A stretch of 64,000 nt of DNA from Dyella sp. RRB7 (GTDB taxonomy: Bacteria; Pseudomonadota; Gammaproteobacteria; Xanthomonadales; Rhodanobacteraceae), in assembly GCF_022761115.1 (NCBI RefSeq), contig NZ_JAKWJS010000007.1, positions 1-64,000 on the forward strand, in the 5' to 3' direction. Shown piece after piece: positions 31,811 to 35,929 of this stretch. The translations under genes were made by a program, and so were the position numbers. Position 1 is the stretch's first letter, and each line of letters begins with the position of its first letter. The notes beneath the pieces were generated by a model. That model did not search any database. It saw nothing but the letters and a program-made list of their open reading frames with translations, and had not been told where the DNA came from.

Positions 31811-32161
31811 ATGTTGAACTGGCCTGACTATCGCAAGGAACTTCTTGGTCGCATTGGCGAGATCGGCAAGCTGAGTCCGGACACGGTGGCTGGCCACCAG
31901 ACCCTGTCCAAGGCGGGCCAGAAAACCGGTCACCTGGATGCCAAGACGCGGGAGCTGATTGCATTGGCGGTGGCAGTGACCACGCGTTGCGATGGCTGCA
32001 TCACCGTGCATGCCGCCGAGGCGCTGAAGCATGGCGCCTCCCACGATGAAATTGCCGAGGCCCTGGGTGTCGCCGTGGCGCTCAACGCGGGCGCGGCGTT
32101 GGTGTATTCCGCCCGCGTGATGGATGCCGTCGGTGCCTACGAGGGCAGCAAGCCCGCCTGA
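31811..32161 (+). CDS. Carboxymuconolactone decarboxylase / AhpD-like protein
   Basis: The 116-aa protein belongs to the AhpD-like superfamily. It has the redox motif CDGC (Cys60, Cys63) followed by His67 in ITVHAAEALKHGAS, the hallmark of alkylhydroperoxidase-type members that use a Cys pair and a proton-relay His. It probably forms hexamers and detoxifies peroxides or acts as an adaptor reductase. GAGGAGA is about 8 bases upstream. It stands alone, with no ahpC nearby. Confidence 0.9.
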   Translation: MLNWPDYRKELLGRIGEIGKLSPDTVAGHQTLSKAGQKTGHLDAKTRELIALAVAVTTRCDGCITVHAAEALKHGASHDEIAEALGVAVALNAGAALVYSARVMDAVGAYEGSKPA

Positions 32162-32303
32162 GCATCAAACGAAAGGGGGAAACGTTGGGAGCGTTTCCCC
32201 GCGCGTCACGGCTGCAAGCCATTTTCAGTACTCGCCATGGCCTGCACTACGGAATCTTCATCGGGCATGGCCAACGATGGCTGGTCCGCATGAGGGATAC
32301 CGC

Positions 32304-33512
32304 ATGTCAAAAAACAAGCAACGCGCCATTTCGCCCCGCTACCGTGCACAGGCATTGATCGAGCGCCGCAACAGGAAGATGGCGCGTTCGGCCCACGCCT
32401 ACGTGCGTGGCAATACCGGGCAGTTCTATGCCTGGCTTGCCGGCCCGGACGCGCCGCAACTGCCCAGCGGCCCGGCCATCTGGATCTGCGGCGATTGCCA
32501 CGTCGGCAACATGGGGCCCGTGGCCGATGACCAGGGCCACGTGCAGATACAGATACGCGATTTCGACCAGGCCACCATCAGCAACCCCGCCTACGACCTG
32601 ATTCGACTCGCCCTCTCGCTGGCCATGGCGGCACGCGGGTCGGATCTGCCGGGCATCACCACGGCCAAGATGCTGGAAGCCATGCTCGACGGTTACGAAA
32701 ACGCGTTTCCCGAGGTGGATGAACCCGAGCCGGCCATGCCCGGCGCCATCAAGCTGGTGATGAAGCGCGCCTTGCGACGCGGCTGGAAGGCCCTGGCGCG
32801 CGAACGCATCCACGATATCGAACCGACGCTTCCGCTGGGCGCCGAGTTCTGGCCATTGACCGTCAAGGAGGACAAGGCCATCGACGCGCTTTTCCGCGAT
32901 GAGCAGCTGCGCGAACTGGCCACGCAGCTTCGACATCGCAAATCGACCGGCGAGGTCAAGGTGCTGGATGCCGCCTACTGGCGCAAAGGCTGCAGCTCGC
33001 TGGGGCGATTGCGCTATGCGGTGCTGCTGGATGTCGATGGCGACATGGTCGAAGGCGACGATCTCTGCCTGATCGACATCAAGGAGGCCGCCGCCTCCGT
33101 GGCCCCGCGTGCGGATGGCGTGCGCTTGCCGCGCGATCATGCGCAACGCGTGGTGGCTGCCGCGCGCCAGTTGTCGCCCGCGCTGGGAAACCGCATGCTG
33201 GCCATGCGCCTGCTCGACAAGCCGGTATTCGTCCGCGAGCTGCTGCCGCAGGATCTCAAGATCGACATCGTCAAGCTGAGCCGGAAGCAGGCCACAAAGG
33301 CCGCGGCATTTCTCGCCCATGTGCTGGGCAGGGCACACTCCCGGCAGATGGATGCCGCCACGCGCCAGCGCTGGCGCAACGAGCTTCAACGCAACCACAT
33401 GCGAACGCTGGACGCCCCTTCGTGGCTGTGGCGCGCCGTCACCGGCCTGCTGTCGATGCACGAGCGCGACTATCTCGACCATTGCAGGCTCTATGTGGGC
33501 GGCAGCGCCTGA
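32304..33512 (+). CDS. DUF2252 family protein (kinase-like fold)
   Basis: The 402-aa protein matches DUF2252: RGNTGQFYAWL, ICGDCHVGNMG, QIQIRDFDQATISNPAYDLIRLA and FVRELLPQDLKID. GDCHVGN and DFD resemble the catalytic loop and metal-binding Asp of aminoglycoside phosphotransferase/protein kinase-like folds, so a small-molecule kinase role is possible but not shown. AGGGA lies about 6 bases before the ATG. It is separated by about 140 bases from the AhpD-like gene and followed by the sigma-54-type regulatory region of the S33 hydrolase. Confidence 0.85.
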   Translation: MSKNKQRAISPRYRAQALIERRNRKMARSAHAYVRGNTGQFYAWLAGPDAPQLPSGPAIWICGDCHVGNMGPVADDQGHVQIQIRDFDQATISNPAYDLIRLALSLAMAARGSDLPGITTAKMLEAMLDGYENAFPEVDEPEPAMPGAIKLVMKRALRRGWKALARERIHDIEPTLPLGAEFWPLTVKEDKAIDALFRDEQLRELATQLRHRKSTGEVKVLDAAYWRKGCSSLGRLRYAVLLDVDGDMVEGDDLCLIDIKEAAASVAPRADGVRLPRDHAQRVVAAARQLSPALGNRMLAMRLLDKPVFVRELLPQDLKIDIVKLSRKQATKAAAFLAHVLGRAHSRQMDAATRQRWRNELQRNHMRTLDAPSWLWRAVTGLLSMHERDYLDHCRLYVGGSA

Positions 33513-33538
33513 GGCCGTTGGCCGGACGTCCGCGTCCC

Positions 33539-33550
33539 TGTCCGCGGACA
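33539..33550. promoter_or_regulatory. TGTCCGCGGACA palindrome, probable enhancer-binding-protein site
   Basis: A perfect 12-bp palindrome is centred 86 bp upstream of the -12 GC of the sigma-54 promoter at 33617. A second palindrome, CGGACGTCCG (33523-33532), lies just upstream. The same element at 35449 stands at the same distance (87 bp) from another sigma-54 promoter. Confidence 0.65.
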
Positions 33551-33616
33551 CGGGGACGAGCGGAGGGTCGGAGAGCAAGTGGCTGAAATCATTCGGCTCG
33601 ATCGCGCCGCCGTGGC

Positions 33617-33632
33617 TGGCACGCCGCTTGCC
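33617..33632 (+). promoter_or_regulatory. Sigma-54 promoter of the S33 hydrolase gene
   Basis: TGGCACG-CCGC-TTGCC matches the -24/-12 consensus exactly; GG (33618-33619) and GC (33630-33631) are 10 bases apart. Transcription would start near 33643, leaving about 70 bases before the start codon. Confidence 0.75.
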
Positions 33633-33713
33633 ATCGTCTGGTGACGCGGCCCGGTGTTCACGCGTGTCCACCGGGTGCCGCCCTTGCAGGACAACCCAGC
33701 CAGGAGAACTTCG

Positions 33714-34898
33714 TTGAGCATGTTTCGCACCCCTCTTGTTTTGCTGCTGACGCTGGGCGTCGGCGTGACCACTGCCCATGCGGCCACCGATCCCGCGGTG
33801 GCATCGAGTGCCGCGGCGCCGGCGGTGCAGGGCAAGCCGGGGTTGATGTCGCGCGAGGATGTCACCCGCATACTGGACAGCAATCGCAAGATCGTCACCG
33901 CGCAAGGCGTCGACGAGAGGATCAAGCTGCGCATTGGCGGCATCGACCAGTGGCTGTCCATCCGCGGCAAGGATCGGCGCAACCCGATCCTGTTGTTCCT
34001 GCATGGTGGCCCCGCCTCGCCGGCCATGCCCGAGGCCTACACCTTCCAGACGCCCTGGGAGGATTATTTCACCGTGGTGCAATGGGATCAGCGCGGCGCC
34101 GGCAAAACCTATGCCGCCAACACCGAACAGGCGATGGCGCCCGGCATGACGGTGCAGGGCATGACCGACGATGCGGCCGAGGTCGTGCAATACCTGCGGC
34201 AACACTACGCCAAGCAGAAGATCTTCCTGCTGGGACACTCCTGGGGCTCGGTACTGGGCGTGCAACTGGCGCAGCGGCACCCGGAGTGGTTCTACGCCTA
34301 TATCTCGGTCGGCCAGGTGGTGAACGGCCGGCGCAATGAGGAGCTTGGCTATGCCTTCGCCCTGCGCGAGGCGACGGCGCAGGGCAACGAGGCGGCTGTG
34401 CGTGAACTCAAGGCCATGGCGCCGTATCCCGGGACTTCGCTCACGCTCGATCGCGTCGGCACGCGCAGCAAATGGGAGATGTATTACGGCGGCCTGGCCT
34501 ATGGCCGCCAGGACTATCAGTTCGAAGACGATGCCGAGTCGCTGTCACCCGATTACAGCAAGGCCGACCTCGCGGCGATCGGCAAAGGCAGCCTCTTCTC
34601 GCTCGAGCACCTGCTGCAACCCTTGCTGGCGGTCGACTTCGACAAGGTCACGCATTTCGATTGCCCGGTGATCGTGTATGTGGGGCAGCACGATTACACC
34701 ACCGCGCACGAGTTGGCTGAGAAGTGGTTCGACGATATCCAGGCCCCGTCGAAGCGGCTGGTGTCCTTCGCCGATTCGGCGCACATGATGATGCAGGAGC
34801 AGCCGGGACGGTTCCTGGTGCATCTGGTGGATGATGCGTTGCCGCTGGCGCAGAAGGTGGGGGATGCGGCGCCGGCGGAAGTTACGCGGGATCGGTAG
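33714..34898 (+). CDS. Exported S33-family alpha/beta hydrolase (prolyl aminopeptidase-like)
   Basis: The 394-aa protein has a cleavable signal peptide (about 3-24, ending AHA). The alpha/beta hydrolase core has the oxyanion motif FLHGGPASP, the nucleophile GHSWGS, the acid in VGQHDYTT and a C-terminal DSAHMMMQEQP, as in proline iminopeptidase-like S33 enzymes. It is probably periplasmic and acts on small peptides or esters. The start is uncertain: TTG 33714 has AGGAGA about 6 bases upstream, ATG 33720 has it at 12; both give nearly the same protein. A sigma-54 promoter with an upstream palindrome precedes it, an unusual control for this family. Confidence 0.85.
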   Translation: MSMFRTPLVLLLTLGVGVTTAHAATDPAVASSAAAPAVQGKPGLMSREDVTRILDSNRKIVTAQGVDERIKLRIGGIDQWLSIRGKDRRNPILLFLHGGPASPAMPEAYTFQTPWEDYFTVVQWDQRGAGKTYAANTEQAMAPGMTVQGMTDDAAEVVQYLRQHYAKQKIFLLGHSWGSVLGVQLAQRHPEWFYAYISVGQVVNGRRNEELGYAFALREATAQGNEAAVRELKAMAPYPGTSLTLDRVGTRSKWEMYYGGLAYGRQDYQFEDDAESLSPDYSKADLAAIGKGSLFSLEHLLQPLLAVDFDKVTHFDCPVIVYVGQHDYTTAHELAEKWFDDIQAPSKRLVSFADSAHMMMQEQPGRFLVHLVDDALPLAQKVGDAAPAEVTRDR

Positions 34899-34920
34899 TT
34901 TGTCGGGGATTTTGGTTGTG

Positions 34921-34973
34921 GCGTTGTCGCCAGGTTGCCGCCCGCCGCATAGGCGGCAACCTGGCGATAACGC
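34921..34973. repeat. 22-bp nearly perfect stem-loop
   Basis: Bases 34921-34942 pair with 34952-34973 with only one G-T wobble, around a 9-base loop. It begins 23 bases after the hydrolase stop. There is no T-tract, so it is not a standard terminator; it may be a mRNA-end structure or remnant of a palindromic element. The rest of 34974-35131 shows nothing. Confidence 0.7.
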
Positions 34974-35131
34974 TCAGGAACAGGGGCCGCCCCCAACGCG
35001 AAAAAAGACCAGCGTCAAAACCACCGATCCCGGCCAGCACACTACGGTATCCCCGCAGATGCACTGCACAGCGTGGCAAGCCTCAAGCAGGCATCGTGGC
35101 CCACATATGCCGGCCACGAGCGTAAACTCCA

Positions 35132-35152
35132 TATGGACGTCCAAACGTCATA
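35132..35152. promoter_or_regulatory. Second met-box-like palindrome
   Basis: TATGGACG-TCCAAA-CGTC-ATA is a near copy of the element at 19577, one base shorter. It lies just after the stop of the 51-aa peptide gene on the minus strand, followed (minus strand, upstream side) by a T-rich stretch (TTTTTTA). A terminator role is possible. Confidence 0.3.
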
Positions 35153-35165
35153 AAAAACAGTTCAG

Positions 35166-35321
35166 TCAGCCAGCCGAACTCACCGAAGCCGCCACCGGCG
35201 CATGGCTGGCCACCGAAGCGGCCACGTTCACATTCGACGTCACCATCGCACCAAAGGTCAGCAGGCAAACCAGCAGGCAGGCGGCGAAAAGGCTCTGCAG
35301 GATCAGGGTTTCGAATTTCAT
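35166..35321 (-). CDS. 51-aa membrane or secreted peptide under sigma-54 control
   Basis: A 51-aa peptide begins MKFETLILQSLFAACLL and has one hydrophobic segment (about 6-27) followed by a small-residue tail of Ala, Val and Ser (VNVAASVASHAPVAASVSSAG). GGAGAA lies 7 bases upstream of the ATG, and a consensus sigma-54 promoter is 46 bases upstream, which together make it a convincing gene. It could be a signal-anchored peptide or a precursor cleaved to a short secreted tail. No family is recognised. It is convergent with the S33 hydrolase gene, whose promoter is built the same way. Confidence 0.65.
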   Translation of the reverse strand: MKFETLILQSLFAACLLVCLLTFGAMVTSNVNVAASVASHAPVAASVSSAG

Positions 35322-35366
35322 GGTCGTTCTCCGTAAGCAGGTTGAGTAGCTTTCGATGGATATGTG

Positions 35367-35381
35367 GCAAGGCGCGTGCCA
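35367..35381 (-). promoter_or_regulatory. Sigma-54 promoter of the 51-aa peptide gene
   Basis: On the minus strand, TTGGCACG-CGCC-TTGCCA matches the -24/-12 consensus exactly. The start point would be near 35355, 34 bases before the ATG. Its spacing and flanks closely resemble the promoter at 33617. Confidence 0.75.
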
Positions 35382-35448
35382 ACCGCCCATATGCCTCGCA
35401 GGCCGCATTCCCAAGCCATTTCCTCGCATGCTCGACAAGATCGCCGAT

Positions 35449-35507
35449 TGTCCGCGGACGGCGCCTGCGGTCATCCGGACAAGCCCGGACAGCCGGCGCG
35501 GTGTCCG
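35449..35507. promoter_or_regulatory. Cluster of TGTCCG/CGGACA sites, probable enhancer
   Basis: TGTCCGCGGACG (35449-35460, 11 of 12 bases of the palindrome) is centred 87 bp from the -12 GC of the sigma-54 promoter at 35367. Further half sites follow: CGGACA at 35476 and 35486, and TGTCCG at 35502, the last two forming an inverted pair. The rest of the 35322-35623 gap holds nothing else recognisable. Confidence 0.6.
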
Positions 35508-35623: not shown

Positions 35624-35929
35624 ATGAGCGAATCCAAAACCGCCGACCGGCTCGAACTGGTCTCCATCGATCTCTCCCAGGCGGAAACGTCAGCGCAGCT
35701 GCAGGTTCTGCTCGCCGATTCACTGGGTTTTCCGGGCTGGTACGGGCATAACTGGGATGCGTTCTGGGACGCCATCACTGGCCTGGTGGCCATGCCGCGT
35801 CGCGTACTGCTGATCGGTTGGGCCGCATTCCAGGCCCGCTTGCCGGAAGACGCGCGGATCATGAAGCAGACCCTGGACGACATGGCCGCGGAGTTTCCTG
35901 CCCTCGCGGCCAAGGTGGTCTATCGGTAG
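35624..35929 (+). CDS. Barstar family protein (RNase inhibitor-like)
   Basis: The 101-aa protein has the barstar fold signature: LVSIDLSQAETSAQLQVLLADSLGFPGWYGHNWDAFWDAITGL, where GFPxxYGxNWDAFWD is the barnase-binding helix/loop. Barstars neutralise barnase-type ribonucleases. No barnase-like gene is adjacent, so it is either a solitary immunity protein, acts on a distant RNase, or has another regulatory role, as many chromosomal barstars may. GGGAG is about 7 bases before the ATG. It converges with the serine hydrolase gene. Confidence 0.9.
   Translation: MSESKTADRLELVSIDLSQAETSAQLQVLLADSLGFPGWYGHNWDAFWDAITGLVAMPRRVLLIGWAAFQARLPEDARIMKQTLDDMAAEFPALAAKVVYR

Follow-up and report, generated by a model that had tools for sequence, protein, structure and literature searches.

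Two facing sigma-54 promoters with similarly placed upstream palindromes lie in the 64-kb stretch of DNA analysed here (the window), which is part of the 4.08-Mb genome of Dyella sp. RRB7. Dyella belongs to the Rhodanobacteraceae in the order Lysobacterales. The -24/-12 element TGGCACGCCGCTTGC (33617-33631, plus strand) precedes a gene for an exported S33-type hydrolase and the element TGGCACGCGCCTTGC (35381-35367, minus strand) precedes a 51-codon open reading frame (ORF), as the original prediction had described. In both elements a GG and a GC stand ten bases apart within TGGCAC-N5-TTGC, which fits a sigma-54 promoter. The palindrome TGTCCGCGGACA (33539-33550) lies upstream of the hydrolase promoter and a copy with one mismatch, TGTCCGCGGACG (35449-35460), lies upstream of the peptide promoter; both are putative enhancers to which a regulator would bind. 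Their centres had been placed 86 and 87 bp from the -12 GC, and they measure 85.5-86.5 and 86.5-87.5 bp from it, respectively. Extra half sites had been claimed beside each palindrome. Three exact TGTCC/GGACA half sites (at 35477, 35487 and 35502, within 35477-35506) are indeed present upstream of the peptide promoter, whereas the first palindrome is flanked only by one-base variants, CGTCC/GGACG, at 33524, 33527, 33533 and 33554 (within 33524-33558).

The hydrolase (33720-34898, plus strand) is a proline-iminopeptidase-like alpha/beta hydrolase with a signal-like N-terminus. Its sequence (33723-34898) matches the Pfam families Abhydrolase_1 (2.3e-18) and Hydrolase_4 (S33; 2.1e-17) above cut-off and scores under the NCBIfam prolyl aminopeptidase equivalog cut-off (47.8 versus 259.75). 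Family conservation suggests that the 51-codon ORF (35166-35321, minus strand; MKFETLILQSLFAACLLVCLLTFGAM...) encodes a single-helix membrane micropeptide, here called peptide 1. On sequence evidence, we consider it likely that both promoters belong to a sigma-54 regulon under an operon-linked, NtrC-type regulator that would drive an exporter, enzymes and micropeptides; the role of this regulon is probably cell envelope defence.

Pairing of palindrome and promoter

With up to two mismatches allowed, the promoter element alone matches the window 43 times against 42.1 in shuffles and the palindrome alone five times against 5.3; neither is in excess, so the signal lies in their pairing. The exact palindrome occurs five times genome-wide, and in four of these copies the start of a downstream TGGC-N7-TTGC lies 78-79 bp from that of the palindrome; the one-mismatch window palindrome has the same start-to-start distance. 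Given a TGGC-N7-TTGC density of 11 per 64-kb window on both strands, the probability of pairing in four of five copies is about 7e-14, a rough figure because the offset was picked after the data were seen. The reversed pattern gave no paired match in the same genome. The longer form TGGCACG-N4-TTGC has 15 copies genome-wide against two for its reverse, and five of the 15 stand with the palindrome. Five paired promoters in the genome lead to the S33 hydrolase, peptide 1, a second micropeptide (peptide 2), a DUF4440 protein and an operon that begins with an export adaptor. That the two window promoters share an enhancer site and belong to one regulon, as first proposed, is thus supported by repetition of palindrome and spacing at several promoters and by their conservation in relatives.

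Within the family, 189 of 233 genomes, from 23 of 26 genera, contain GTCCGCGGAC-N53..83-TGGC-N7-TTGC, compared to four of 233 genomes for the reversed control (G007, G024, G078 and G125, one match each). In a wider sample of the order, the exact paired pattern occurs in 119 of 398 genomes: 109 of 125 from the same family and 10 of 273 outside it, where the reversed control gives four of 273. The outside figure is an underestimate because the pattern misses -12 boxes that end in CTGC or GTGC. Among 23 loci from family f2 (probably Xanthomonadaceae) and other families, the exact palindrome precedes the -24 element by 53-56 bp in five, all of them f2 members. In f2 adaptor promoters (e.g., L297, L299-L302 and L307) the -12 box often ends in CTGC or GTGC rather than TTGC, and scans with a strict sigma-54 pattern therefore overlook these promoters. 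We also compared 33 adaptor upstream regions (38 loci minus five for which no start was found), mostly from lineages without the exact pair. These contain 132 TGTCC/GGACA half sites versus 16.5 expected, with at least two in 31 of the 33 regions; TGGC-N7-TTGC occurs in 20 of them and TGGC-N7-NTGC in 12 of the other 13. The 33 include L319, a second, distant adaptor match of genome G235 that has neither element. A family-specific system was considered and dropped, given that the regulator occurs in other families (f2 above all) and that f2 has palindromes with variant -12 boxes. Because distant adaptor promoters hold half sites, sigma-54 elements and, in f2, palindromes, the core operon probably came under this kind of control before the family arose, and only the exact form of that control is family-typical. 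We therefore describe a putative sigma-54 regulon of the Rhodanobacteraceae (Dyella, Rhodanobacter, Frateuria, Luteibacter and their kin), with a core operon that appears to be similarly controlled in other families of the order.

Targets were surveyed in 147 rows that represent 144 distinct sites (the L075 rows duplicate L182/L183, and L058 has two overlapping palindromes). The sample was chosen rather than random: first matches of 30 genomes, all matches of 26 selected genomes and extra ones from the genus. The first gene after the promoter belongs to the adaptor operon in 42 rows and encodes peptide 2, just before trmL, in 30; peptide 1 in 26 (21 by script and five by eye, at L128, L129, L137, L139 and L174); the S33 hydrolase in 16; a permease in 11; a DUF4440 protein in three; TolC in two; and pcm-tolC in one. 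At L146 and L148 the first peptide was likewise assigned by eye, and one of the peptide-1 rows from the script, L106, is doubtful. One row has a weak DUF885 match (22% identity), and the remaining 15 lead to other or unidentified genes, some of which are probably chance matches. The full promoter is present at pcm-tolC or tolC in relatives at L066, L149 and L157.

Spacing between the palindrome core and TGGC falls into discrete classes. In the 147 rows, gaps are 55-58 bp (17 rows), 64-70 bp (128), 76 bp (one) and 80 bp (one), with none at 59-63 bp. Among named adaptor promoters (78 fetched, with the incomplete L276 left out), all 77 that could be scored have both elements (pattern GTCCNNGGAC with TGGC-N7-[TCG]TGC), with gaps of 45-46 bp (two), 56-57 bp (seven) and 65-69 bp (68). 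These classes lie about 11 bp, or one helical turn, apart. A periodicity score is 0.88-0.90 for periods of 10.5-12 in the named set and has its maximum at 12 in the 147 rows; it leaves the period unfixed because most sites fall in one spacing class, so the helical-turn reading is based on the empty bins. In the 80 bp upstream of the palindromes, the 147 rows contain 282 exact TGTCC/GGACA half sites against 22.1 expected from base shuffles, an enrichment of about 13-fold.

The loop between palindrome and promoter differs among target classes. Searched with the consensus WATCAANNNNTTR and at most one mismatch, IHF-like sites occur in the loop of 60% of 30 peptide-2 promoters and 52% of 42 adaptor promoters (shuffles 3-4%), in 25% of 16 S33 promoters (shuffles 1%), in only 5% of 21 peptide-1 promoters (shuffles 1%) and in none of 11 permease promoters (shuffles 4%). 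Peptide-1 promoters have in common a conserved block between the palindrome and the -24 element, which in the window is GGAAATGGCTTGGGAATGCGGCCT (35400-35423, minus strand) and in which TGCGG is fixed at position -26 in nine of 21 promoters. At G075:C33:207354 the block is a perfect inverted repeat, AAAACCGCAT-N4-ATGCGGTTTT, and it is near-perfect in G299. This block is possibly the site of a second regulator, in the place taken at other promoters by an IHF-like site.

An export operon and its linked regulator

The core operon lies outside the window on contig C18 of the same genome (G000) and comprises a paired promoter, an HlyD-type adaptor, an ATPase, eight FtsX/MacB-type permease-like ORFs and a DUF885 protein. 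One permease pair was detected by open reading frame alone, and the one permease ORF of the eight that was run against Pfam has MacB_PCD and FtsX domains. The nearest named relatives of the adaptor are from Dyella, at up to 95% identity. An HlyD adaptor (RND_mfp 126 versus a cut-off of 94.9), a MacB_PCD/FtsX permease and a LolD-like ATPase together give a composition like that of MacAB-TolC and of the darobactin exporter DarBCD, and three sampled rows in which the promoter leads to tolC or pcm-tolC are a further likeness to MacAB-TolC. Equivalog scores fall short of both named systems: MacA 58.9 versus 342 bits, MacB 47.5 (permease) and 216.8 (ATPase) versus 966 bits, and DarC 76.5 versus 450 for the adaptor. 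DarD is the best NCBIfam score of the ATPase, yet reaches 260.7 against a cut-off of 375 bits, and, as a further difference from these systems, permease and ATPase are separate proteins here.

A sigma-54 response regulator gene (G000:C18:64433-65767) starts 184 bp past the DUF885 gene and is followed by a 104-codon ORF and a kinase gene. The regulator has Response_reg (REC), Sigma54_activat and Fis-type HTH_8 domains, all above the Pfam gathering score. It resembles NtrC/AtoC-type regulators in this domain order (REC, AAA+, Fis helix-turn-helix), in its sigma-54 promoters with an upstream palindromic enhancer and in the IHF-like loop site at many promoters; it differs in the TGTCC half site and the target set, for which no description was found. 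It scores under the cut-offs of 25 listed named NCBIfam models (including AtoC, PEP_resp_reg, NtrC, ZraR, GlrR and PspF), the best being AtoC (353.5 versus 714) and the PEP-CTERM regulator (334 versus 502.6). The kinase has HAMP, PAS and HATPase domains (Pfam), and hydropathy over its first 95 residues peaks near residues 11-31 and 50-81, which suggests two membrane helices with a short outer loop. Bce-type kinases of Firmicutes also have a short outer loop and sense through a transporter within two-component detoxification modules. Linkage of an FtsX-type permease operon to a kinase, here with a predicted short outer loop, and its response regulator would be common to both arrangements; the differences are a sigma-54-type activator here, along with an adaptor, TolC, peptidase-like enzymes and micropeptides.

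Among the family genomes, 211 of 233 have a match to the regulator, and across the order 258 of 398 do. Positions were compared in 63 genomes. In 57 of these, the paired site (one candidate per genome, picked by eye) lies 5-31 kb upstream of the regulator gene on the same contig and strand; in the other six, site and gene are on different contigs. This linkage and the half sites shared by distant adaptor promoters make the operon-linked regulator, together with its short-loop kinase, the best candidate and the likely activator, to judge from sequence.

Several observations weigh against this assignment. The 184-bp gap means that the regulator may have its own promoter. An exact palindrome upstream of pcm-tolC (G000:C19:96795-96806, i.e., L040:4796-4807) lacks a canonical -24/-12 element. 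In lineages g4, g5 and g21, the regulator is mostly present while the exact pair is missing; adaptors sampled from them retain sigma-54 elements and half sites in a different arrangement. The genome also encodes seven strong enhancer-binding protein genes, six besides the linked regulator, and another activator, such as PilR or the paralogue near 622 kb on contig C1, might own the sites while the linked regulator has different targets. The paralogue is 45% identical, helix-turn-helix included, has its own exporter, and has GGACA and GTCC near its own sigma-54 promoter; PilR half sites contain TGTC. Furthermore, the pattern matches 11 of 20 listed genomes without a linked-regulator match (G004, G010, G017, G080, G113, G129, G132, G136, G177, G218 and G220), but ten of these are drafts. 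The other, G017, is a single contig, 99% complete, with neither regulator match nor adaptor, yet has two pattern matches, at least one of which (L071, with a gap of 57 and an unidentified ORF behind it) looks like chance. We consider control by another activator unlikely: it does not account for the position of the paired site upstream of the linked regulator or for the repeated half sites at distant adaptor promoters, and the palindrome was not found at the exporter promoter of the paralogous set (TGGCACGGGGATTGC). That second set (G000:C1:616000-630000, L039) consists of adaptor, ATPase, permease, sigma-54 regulator and kinase genes.

Putative membrane micropeptides

Peptide-1 members have 28-52 residues and peptide-2 members 27-73, and seven members of only 27-28 residues are a bare hydrophobic segment. 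In a hand-chosen alignment of 25 sequences from both subfamilies, four positions (M1, E4, L11 and M26) do not vary and three more (K2, L8 and C19) hardly do. Together with C15, these residues would lie on one helix face. In separate column counts over the subfamilies, K2 and E4 were preset by the selection pattern. For the Dyella sp. RRB7 peptide 2, a paralogue of peptide 1, structure prediction gives a helix over residues 3-29 with confidence and a tail with little (mean pLDDT 68). Peptides 1 and 2 of this genome have no Pfam or NCBIfam match. Some relatives (e.g., G067, G100 and G160) have more than one peptide-1 gene. Two tandem membrane micropeptide ORFs, for 27 and then 62-63 residues, stand before trmL at L146 and L148; at L128, L129, L139, L162 and L174 a further, possibly co-transcribed gene lies behind the peptide-1 gene, and its product varies by genome. 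AcrZ, MgtS and KdpF are single-helix small membrane proteins. They are similar in length (about 27-50 residues), in having one membrane helix and in co-expression with a transporter; sigma-54 control, several peptide-1 genes in some relatives and the lack of a Pfam or NCBIfam match set the present family apart.

Peptide 1 had been described as a membrane or secreted peptide. The membrane part is supported, since the helix is conserved and the shortest members are the hydrophobic helix alone, so that peptide 1 looks like a membrane micropeptide. A conserved, cleaved secreted part finds no support: longer peptide-1 tails are variable, and a secreted signal peptide is ruled out for peptide 1 by the members without a tail. 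Peptide-2 members may still have a secreted part, as the tail is conserved in most of them; 24 of 30 have two spaced cysteines after residue 30 around LPPDGV (Cys-x-Leu-Pro-Pro-Asp-Gly-Val-x-Cys), and this tail may have a periplasmic role.

A terminator-like hairpin with a T run, by consensus match, lies at the stop codon of the peptide-1 ORF (35159-35180, minus strand; three such hairpins were found in the region versus 1.3 expected), which suggests that the peptide-1 transcript is monocistronic. This short predicted transcript, from sigma-54 promoter to hairpin, and the 5' leader TTGCCATATATCC..CGAAAGC, which is conserved in peptide-1 promoters, would also suit small transcripts that act mainly as sigma-54-dependent regulatory RNAs and whose ORFs are secondary. 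Conservation of specific peptide positions across genera makes that very unlikely, and pairwise differences in 49 sequences (8.18, 5.47 and 9.17 at codon positions 1, 2 and 3), in which position 2 is the most constrained, add a modest coding signal. The original prediction further suggested a peptide-processing or signalling pair. To this reading, in which the S33 hydrolase would act on a secreted 51-residue product, we give hardly any credence: co-regulation and proximity in the window favour it, and the cysteine-flanked peptide-2 tail could form a periplasmic or exported loop, but in the four other genomes of the genus in which both promoters were classified, that of S33 and that of peptide 1 are placed on different contigs (G044) or about 552, 832 and 323 kb apart (G045, G049 and G055, respectively), tail-less 28-residue peptide-1 members leave no conserved secreted part to process, and the conservation common to both subfamilies sits in the helix. 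S33-peptide synteny is therefore not kept in these four genomes, and the proximity in the window is probably accidental.

Around these genes, a Barstar-family protein (35624-35926, plus strand; Pfam 3.2e-18) is encoded upstream of the peptide promoter on the opposite strand, and the region is flanked by genes for a DUF2252 protein (32124-33512, plus strand) and a beta-lactamase-fold serine hydrolase (37402-35972, minus strand).

A putative envelope-defence circuit

A general link between sigma-54 and such permeases is already known from a 2025 survey (PMC12316311), which, in the part of its text that was available, reports sigma-54 promoters enriched for COG0577 (ABC antimicrobial-peptide) permeases in gammaproteobacteria. 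Dyella, Rhodanobacter, Xanthomonadales, MacA and MacB do not occur as terms in the survey, and in its passages considered here we found no such enhancer-binding protein site, regulon, activator or peptide family. Searches of titles and abstract openings for the motif or regulon returned no description, and the motif string appeared only in a human-gene paper. A regulon with this site, activator and micropeptide family is thus undescribed in the literature searched, as the original prediction had suspected.

The regulon could operate as follows. The short-loop kinase would sense envelope stress or a membrane-active compound, perhaps via the permeases, by analogy with Bce-type kinases. The phosphorylated regulator would then bind the TGTCC half sites and TGTCCGCGGACA, a site identified by conservation, and meet sigma-54 polymerase across a DNA loop; length classes in helical turns and the IHF-like site often present at adaptor and peptide-2 promoters are sequence patterns consistent with this step. 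The output, judged from promoter conservation, would comprise the exporter, TolC in some species, periplasmic or exported enzymes (the S33 hydrolase and the DUF885 and DUF4440 proteins) and the multiplying micropeptides. The single conserved helix face suggests that the micropeptides may have a partner within the membrane on which they act, the permeases and the kinase being the likeliest candidates. Tentatively, and with more doubt than confidence, we propose that the recurring outputs of this envelope-defence regulon are the FtsX-type exporter and self-multiplying micropeptides of 27-73 residues that dock through the helix face E4-L8-L11-C15-C19-M26 onto the permeases or kinase to tune pump or signal, with new paralogues at further palindrome promoters extending the response.

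If the regulon is as proposed, an envelope-defence circuit would gain a site, a candidate activator and a list of targets, in bacteria for which our searches returned no such sigma-54 regulon, and with it would come a very short membrane protein family that was recognised here solely via its common promoter. The helical-turn spacing classes would serve as a natural experiment in the ways that enhancer-binding proteins contact sigma-54 polymerase. Should kinase and permeases be coupled, the system would be a Bce-like module under sigma-54 control.

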